The position numbers and the translations under genes are program-made. A model generated the notes under the pieces. It saw only the letters and a list, made by a program, of their open reading frames with translations, was not told the DNA's origin and searched no databases. This document shows, piece after piece, positions 57,052 through 58,694 of a stretch of DNA of 64,000 bases. The DNA is taken from NCBI RefSeq assembly GCF_036206005.1, contig NZ_CP108143.1:1240001-1304000 (forward strand), given 5' to 3'. The stretch is from Streptomyces sp. NBC_00178 (GTDB taxonomy: Bacteria > Actinomycetota > Actinomycetes > Streptomycetales > Streptomycetaceae). How positions within the stretch are numbered: position 1 is the stretch's first letter; the number at the start of each line of letters is the position of its first letter.

Positions 57052-58142
57052 GCGGAGACCTCCCCGTAGGCGGCGAGCAGCACGGCCGGGTCGGGGCCTT
57101 CGAGCACGGTGGGCTTCCCGATGCCGTCCAGGACGATGAAGCGCAGCAGGTCGCCGCGGGACTTCTTGTCGACCTTCATGTTCTCCAGGAGCTTGGGCCA
57201 CTGGTCGCCGCGGTAGGTGAGCGGCAGTCCGACGGACTCCAGGACGGCGCGGTGCCGGTCGGCCGTGGCGTCGTCGAGGCGCCCGGCGAGGCGGCCCAGT
57301 TCGGCGGCGAAGACCATGCCGACGGAGACGGCCGCCCCGTGGCGCCACTTGTAGCGCTCGTTCTTCTCGATGGCGTGGGCTAGCGTGTGCCCGTAGTTGA
57401 GGATCTCCCGGAGCCCGGACTCCTTGAGGTCGCTGGAGACGACCTCGGCCTTGACCCGGATGGAGCGCTCGATCAGCTCGGAGGTGTGCGGGCCCGCGGG
57501 CGTTCGGGCGCCCTGCGGGTCGGCCTCGACGAGGTCGAGGATCACCGGGTCGGCGATGAATCCGGCCTTGATGATCTCGGCCATGCCGGAGACGTAGTCG
57601 TGGACGGGCAGCGAGTCGAGCGCGGCGAGGTCGCAGAGCACCCCGGCCGGCGGGTGGAAGGCGCCGACGAGGTTCTTGCCCTCGGCCGTGTTGATGCCGG
57701 TCTTGCCGCCGACGGCCGCGTCGACCATGCCGAGCACGGTCGTGGGGACGGCGATCCACCGCACTCCGCGCAGCCAGGAGGCGGCGACGAAGCCCGCGAC
57801 GTCGGTGGTGGCGCCACCGCCGACACCCACGATGACGTCGGTGCGGGTGAAACCGGTCTGGCCGAGCGCCTTCCAGCAGTAGGCGGCGACCTCGACGGTC
57901 TTGGCCTCCTCGGCGTTCGGCAGCTGGATCGCGATGGCCTCGTAGCCCTGGGAGGCCAGGTCCTCACGGACCGCCTCGCCCGTCTCGGCCAGTGCCTCGG
58001 GGTGCAGGACCGCGACGCGCTTGGCCCGGTCCCCGATGAGCGCGGGGAGCTCGCCGAGGAGCTGCCGCCCGACGAGGACCTCGTACGGGTCGGTGCCCGC
58101 GGTGCCGGCGATCTGGATGCGCGTGGTGCCCTGCTCGGTCAT
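57048..58142 (-). CDS. aroB: 3-dehydroquinate synthase (separate product if started at 58142)
   Basis: AroB makes 3-dehydroquinate from DAHP with NAD and zinc. The ATG at 58142 is preceded by GGGAG at a good distance and gives 364 aa, the normal size of a separate AroB. Motifs include [16 protein letters not shown] (about 97), [18 protein letters not shown] (about 118), the zinc site in [13 protein letters not shown] and [12 protein letters not shown]. The same frame is open without a stop through aroK, so this product may come from internal initiation while a longer AroK-AroB fusion is also made. Confidence 0.8.
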
Positions 58143-58694
58143 GGCTGTGGTCTCCCGGCCGGACGCCACGGGGTCACCCGTGCGCTCCGGCAGTTCCAGT
58201 GCGTCGAGGATCGCGCGGGCGACCTCTTCGGGGGTGCGGTCGTCGGTGGTGACGGTGGCCCGGGCCACTTCCTCGTACAGAGGGCGCCTGGCGTCCATGA
58301 GCTCGCGCCACTGCCGCCGCGGGTTCACCGCGAGGAGGGGCCGCGCGGTGTTCAGCCCGACCCTCCGGACGGCCTCGTCGACGTCCATCGAGAGGTAGAC
58401 GACCGGACGCCCGGCCAGCAGGGCCCGGGTCGAGTCGTCCAGCACGGCGCCGCCGCCGAGGGCCAGGACTCCCGTGTGCTGGTCCACGGCGGCCCGCACG
58501 GCCTGCCGTTCCAGCGCGCGGAAGTGCTCCTCGCCCTCGTCGAAGAAGATCTCGGAGATCGCCTTGCCGGCCGTGGCCACGACGTCCGCGTCGGTGTCGC
58601 GGTAGCCGGTGCCCAGACGCTCGGCGAGCAGCTCGCCCACCGTGGACTTGCCGACGCCCATCGGGCCGACCAGGACGATCAGCGGCCCGCTCAC
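57048..58694 (-). CDS. aroK: Shikimate kinase fused in frame to 3-dehydroquinate synthase
   Basis: From the ATG at 58694 a single 548-aa frame covers shikimate kinase (about 1-170) and, through a 15-residue linker, dehydroquinate synthase (about 185-548). The kinase part has [17 protein letters not shown], the shikimate-binding LGGGAVLDD and the lid around [15 protein letters not shown]. In relatives I recall aroK ends near ALDALEL and is a separate gene. Here the sequence around CGCACGGGTGACCCC keeps the frame open, while a TGA lies one frame away. It may be a true fusion, or a one-base difference removed the stop. Its ATG overlaps the aroC stop by 4 bp. Confidence 0.72.

Follow-up and report, generated by a model that had tools for sequence, protein, structure and literature searches.

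A fused aroK-aroB gene of Streptomyces retains a conserved candidate start for free AroB

The joining of shikimate kinase (AroK) and 3-dehydroquinate synthase (AroB) in one polypeptide has several described precedents, against which the Streptomyces gene analyzed here can be set. The AROM pentafunctional polypeptide (7u5s) contains both domains, along with further activities, but in that chain the AroB domain (residues 94-370) stands first, well ahead of the kinase (residues 860-992), whereas the kinase leads in the Streptomyces protein. The same pair of activities, as judged by name, is found in NF010556 (PRK13951, bifunctional shikimate kinase AroK/3-dehydroquinate synthase AroB), which we take to be the Thermotoga-type fusion; against this profile the Streptomyces protein scores 214 bits, compared with a curated cut-off of 560, and its best stretch lies in the AroB part. 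Closest is NF010627 (PRK14021, bifunctional shikimate kinase/3-dehydroquinate synthase), which shares both domains, with the kinase first and in one frame, and which is the best NCBIfam match, with an alignment that takes in residues 4-543 and almost the full profile. The score of 491.2 bits nevertheless falls below the curated cut-off of 565, a value reached in none of 296 genomes of the class and none of 14 controls, in a search lacking a positive control for that family. A Gardnerella product bearing the name of NF010627 appears in a table of PMC12372832.

The gene considered here lies in Streptomyces sp. NBC_00178, within a stretch of 64,000 nucleotides that was analyzed as a whole and is referred to as the window, and is encoded, with all of its parts described below, on the minus strand. 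The sequence-only reading had recognized an uninterrupted AroK-AroB frame of 548 codons, and this frame is indeed present at 57048-58694, opening with GTG and running without an internal stop. Residues 1-166 (58197-58694) make up the AroK part, which contains what we presume to be a Walker motif and in which Pfam PF01202 (SKI) matches residues 12-166 with 147.4 bits, well past the gathering cut-off of 22.1. The AroB part (57048-58142) passes the cut-off of TIGR01357 (362.5 bits against 305), aligns with PDB chain 3qbd_A at 449.9 bits, and holds the two DHQS domains of Pfam (DHQ_synthase and DHQS_C) at residues 256-366 and 370-512. The linker joining these parts (residues 167-184; 58143-58196), the sequence and length of which differ among relatives, comprises 18 residues between AroK residue 166 and AroB Met185 rather than the 15 first counted. 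As judged from family membership, the fused protein would have both AroK and AroB function, and because a search of the 7.38-Mb genome (E<=0.001) returned a single match to the whole protein, its own locus, and no separate AroK or AroB elsewhere, this one gene should supply both activities. A structure model of the fusion built from 14 sequences had a mean pLDDT of 50.2 and was too poor for use on interdomain contacts. The flanking genes, the products of which look to us like chorismate synthase (ahead of aroK) and type II dehydroquinase (behind aroB), adjoin aroK and aroB through GTGA overlaps at 58694-58691 and 57051-57048, and among these three neighboring junctions only that between aroK and aroB is fused.

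The fused frame is by no means confined to one strain. Among 295 Streptomyces genomes, 294 match the fusion protein, 39 of these through one unbroken match over both domains and a further 2 through a match that is in frame but contains a TGA. Junctions were read in the 150 genomes with listed matches, of which 39 are fused and 111 split, while the remaining 144 genomes were searched with a 161-residue piece spanning the linker, which matched in 142. One of these (G152) has no stop across the junction, and its fused frame was confirmed in sequence up to the contig end; in 14 others the match in the AroB frame extends into the AroK part, yet in all 14 it is out of frame with the AroK match. At least 40 of the 294 genomes are therefore fused, a lower bound since the rest were judged by match tables among the matches listed. 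In a second collection, which consists of the best 80 loci of a larger number and shares part of its species with the first, 18 of the 79 usable loci are fused; L082, with no AroK on its contig, was left out of all counts. In one Streptomyces genome rated 99% complete (G176) the match to the entire fusion reaches only E 5.6e-19 and the linker-spanning piece is unmatched, a pattern that would reflect either a break in the contig or the absence of aroB.

Most Streptomyces carry the same two genes, in the same place and with the same start region, as separate reading frames, and differ from the window in that AroK terminates at a TGA overlapping the AroB start where the window has an open frame. 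Specifically, AroK ends in 152 of 172 split loci at the TGA of an ATGA that overlaps the AroB start, while the other 20 have GTGA, which by eye falls at a plausible AroB GTG start in 11 and shows no overlap in 9. The fused clade to which the window belongs retains the same ATG, now in frame with AroK. In the window this codon, Met185 of the fusion, occupies 58140-58142 and forms part of an ATGA (58142-58139) whose TGA, at 58139-58141, lies out of frame at the AroK stop position of most split relatives. The expectation that a TGA one frame away would mark the AroK end of relatives thus holds for this TGA, and fails for the one in the GGGTGACCCC tract. The internal GGGAG that had been pointed out ahead of ATG 58142 was likewise located, as a putative Shine-Dalgarno sequence at 58152-58156 with a spacing of 9 nt.

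We propose, with a probability of roughly 0.6, that the gene makes an AroK-AroB fusion together with some free AroB produced by internal initiation. Ribosomes starting at the aroK GTG would, as follows from the sequence, reach the end of aroB without meeting a stop and yield an AroK-linker-AroB protein. Other ribosomes, as the conservation described below suggests, would initiate at the retained GGGAG and ATG to give free AroB, a product made possible by the retention of the old aroB start inside the fused frame. Free AroK would not be expected, save through cleavage or frameshifting. Of the alternatives offered by the sequence-only reading, the best fit is that one frame yields both a fusion and free AroB: the frame is conserved in the clade and the internal start is unchanged, the fusion being the part that can be read directly and free AroB the part to which conservation points.

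Evidence for this dual output comes from the junctions of the 38 distinct fused rows of the window's clade, all of which have GGAG and, nine bases on, ATG. The three codons separating GAG and ATG vary, with 5, 6 and 6 different residues, and the codon ahead of GAG has, by parsimony, changed its residue six times with its third base always G. Mapping of substitutions onto the tree shows that, of the 42 nucleotide sites covering codons -6 to +7, 16 are unchanged, and that the seven sites of GGAG and ATG show no change at all. With sites taken as equal, the chance of all seven named sites being unchanged is 4e-4 for this interval, 8e-4 for codons -5 to +5, and 6e-5 for codons -10 to +7, the last being affected by misalignment of codons -10 to -7 in rows with short linkers; because nucleotide sites are not really equal, these figures serve as a guide only.

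The principal competing explanation, that only the fusion is made, with the internal start left over as a relic that ribosomes ignore, is appreciably less probable, though it deserves serious consideration. The frame demands no product beyond the fused one, named AroK-AroB families exist, and the Glu and Met encoded at the start could be retained for protein reasons. Several sites adjacent to the start are likewise unchanged, 9 further sites of the 42 being invariant, some of which adjoin it. Set against a relic are the constancy of GGAG and ATG in every fused row, including a third base that stayed the same while its residue changed six times, and the retention of the start in other fused lineages. 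In a second fused set of Streptomyces, an ATG or GTG lies a few codons behind a GGAG stretch in all 13 loci examined, some of which represent one species twice. Outside the genus, two of three fused loci (L253 and L255) keep AGGAG and ATG, while no clear internal start was seen at the junction of the third, L256, a locus of another genus.

A third explanation holds that separate proteins are restored, either because the linker is cleaved or because ribosomes slip onto the out-of-frame TGA of the ATGA. An A follows the ATG in 38 of 38 rows, including two in which Ser replaces Thr, so that the out-of-frame TGA is kept throughout, and a hairpin, GCCGGAGCGCACGGG-TGAC-CCCGTGGCGTCCGGC, is predicted just upstream, within the linker (58158-58191). 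Against this, no conserved slippery run is present, the codons ahead of the ATG being variable; neither does the hairpin have support from covariation. Its outer five pairs are almost invariant across 36 distinct linkers, and the MFE structures of all 36 contain base pairs; covariation was absent among these linkers and is uninformative here because the five consensus pairs hardly vary. As a candidate conserved RNA structure the linker was rejected, since the surrounding 96 bases fold no better than shuffled sequences (z -0.31). Overall, we regard the restoration of separate proteins as improbable, and favor a fusion accompanied by free AroB.

The history of the junction was reconstructed from trees based on aroK and aroB with the linker removed, and since these are built from the genes themselves, recombination could affect them. 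The 199 distinct rows entered into FastTree were obtained after 29 identical rows had been merged and L048, with its broken AroB match, dropped; the resulting tree unites the window with 37 further fused rows and with 5 split ones in a single clade of 43 distinct rows. Laboratory relatives in the fused clade include S. anulatus and S. californicus, fused in L042 and L043. A more careful tree of 54 of the 199 rows, also without L048, recovers the clade of 38 fused and 5 split rows with bootstrap/SH-aLRT values of 99/98. Within it, the five split rows group together (100/99) and then with two fused rows (100/98), inside the fused clade; a tree forcing the 38 fused rows together was rejected with p-AU 0.023, for a group named after the first tree had been seen. 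Comparison with close Streptomyces genomes, proposed at the outset as a check, thereby finds the fused frame to be common to the whole clade. That the open frame reflects faulty assembly, or that the stop was lost recently in the window's strain, as had been suggested from the sequence, is scarcely credible and is ruled out by these relatives: one linker base does divide fused from split rows in a nested subclade (L017 against L050), but the same frame stands in at least 40 of 294 genomes and 18 of 79 usable loci of the second collection, in independent assemblies and across an entire clade.

Fusion probably happened a single time, before the window's clade diversified, as the tree and the linkers suggest. 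The four nearest rows outside the clade are all split. In three of these four the aroK tail, counted as the bases before the ATG plus one codon, is 56 bases long, and in five rows of the window's clade it is 57. The ancestor would have been an aroK gene with a C-terminal tail and a stop overlapping the aroB start, into which an insertion or deletion brought the ATG into the frame of aroK. A small frame change, one of the possibilities raised initially, is thus plausibly the origin of the fusion, though one placed at the root of the clade; the only frame change inside the clade runs in the reverse direction and re-splits the gene in the nested group of five rows. These rows (L050, L051, L122, L123 and L124) form a subclade in which AroK ends at ATGA, and a one-base change appears to have divided their formerly fused gene again, the linker of fused L017 measuring 42 bases and that of split L050 measuring 41. 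By parsimony, linker length changed six times in the clade, five times with the frame kept and once, in the single-base change that accompanies re-splitting, with it altered, as though all later insertions and deletions but one had been frame-keeping and that one had cost the subclade a base. Retention of the frame is as would be expected if the joined frame were useful, and because length changes are few it offers modest evidence for such a use.

The second fused set of Streptomyces, roughly 80% identical to that of the window, has its members scattered over a different part of the genus tree. Across the whole FastTree tree there are at least 9 state changes, 2 of which belong to the window's clade, and several forks in the region of the second set are weak. 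In most of this set the linker is formed by a dispersed palindromic repeat: among 9 distinct linkers, the 26-base CCGGGGGACAACCCCCGGACCCCCGG is exact in 4, present with 2-3 mismatches in 3, and not recognizable in L120 (7 mismatches) and L045 (10). A 24-base form of the repeat, allowing up to 2 mismatches, occurs in 18 copies in 5 of 8 genomes, with none for a reversed control, and a looser form in 26 copies in 4 of 4 genomes, again with none for its control; both counts include the copies at aroK-aroB junctions. The second set may have arisen either by repeated insertion of the repeat or by exchange of the junction between species. Separately, the split aroK genes of L147 (G157), L137, L127 and L131 have C-terminal tails resembling the repeat, two in tandem in L147, and the window itself carries a copy of the palindromic repeat CCGGGGGACAACCCCCGGACCCCC with one mismatch at 51840-51863 (minus strand), in frame and early in a gene which looks to us like one for aspartate carbamoyltransferase. 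The linker of the window was tried as a dispersed repeat and rejected, as the 66-base stretch surrounding it matches only itself well in its own genome, the next match having E 0.005 over 22 bases.

A broader scheme, to which we give somewhat less than even odds, would unite these histories. The pair would switch by one base between a split state, with stop and start coupled, and a fused state with dual output, in which mixed AroB dimers and an excess of AroB over AroK may be expected; elsewhere in Streptomyces, the dispersed palindromic repeat would have entered the junction and fused the pair anew.

Fusion of the pair extends beyond Streptomyces. The search with NF010627 across 296 genomes of the class gave one unbroken match over most of the profile in 5, namely the genome of the window, one more Streptomyces, two genomes from a second genus and one from a third, while one further genome has a match that is in frame but with a TGA. 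In the genus of G415, such a match is present in 2 of 21 genomes. Junctions of three non-Streptomyces loci (L253, L255 and L256) were read and are fused, and these loci are scattered among split relatives. Given the fusions in other genera, joining of AroK and AroB seems to recur.

Split, fused and re-split states of one gene pair, together with a conserved internal start, thus occur side by side in a single genus, and the series allows a direct test of whether fusing two pathway enzymes alters their ratio or only their attachment. There is a practical consequence as well, in that an annotation reflecting just the AroB part of such a gene would leave the kinase unnoticed in more than one tenth of the Streptomyces genomes sampled. 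The titles and abstract openings of the literature searched do not describe a Streptomyces AroK-AroB fusion, which is not to claim its absence from print. As a kind of protein, the AroK-AroB fusion is already known, as NF010627 and NF010556 attest; what the Streptomyces genes appear to add, as far as comparison of their sequences can tell, is an independent-looking origin, a nested re-splitting, and an internal start that has been strictly kept.
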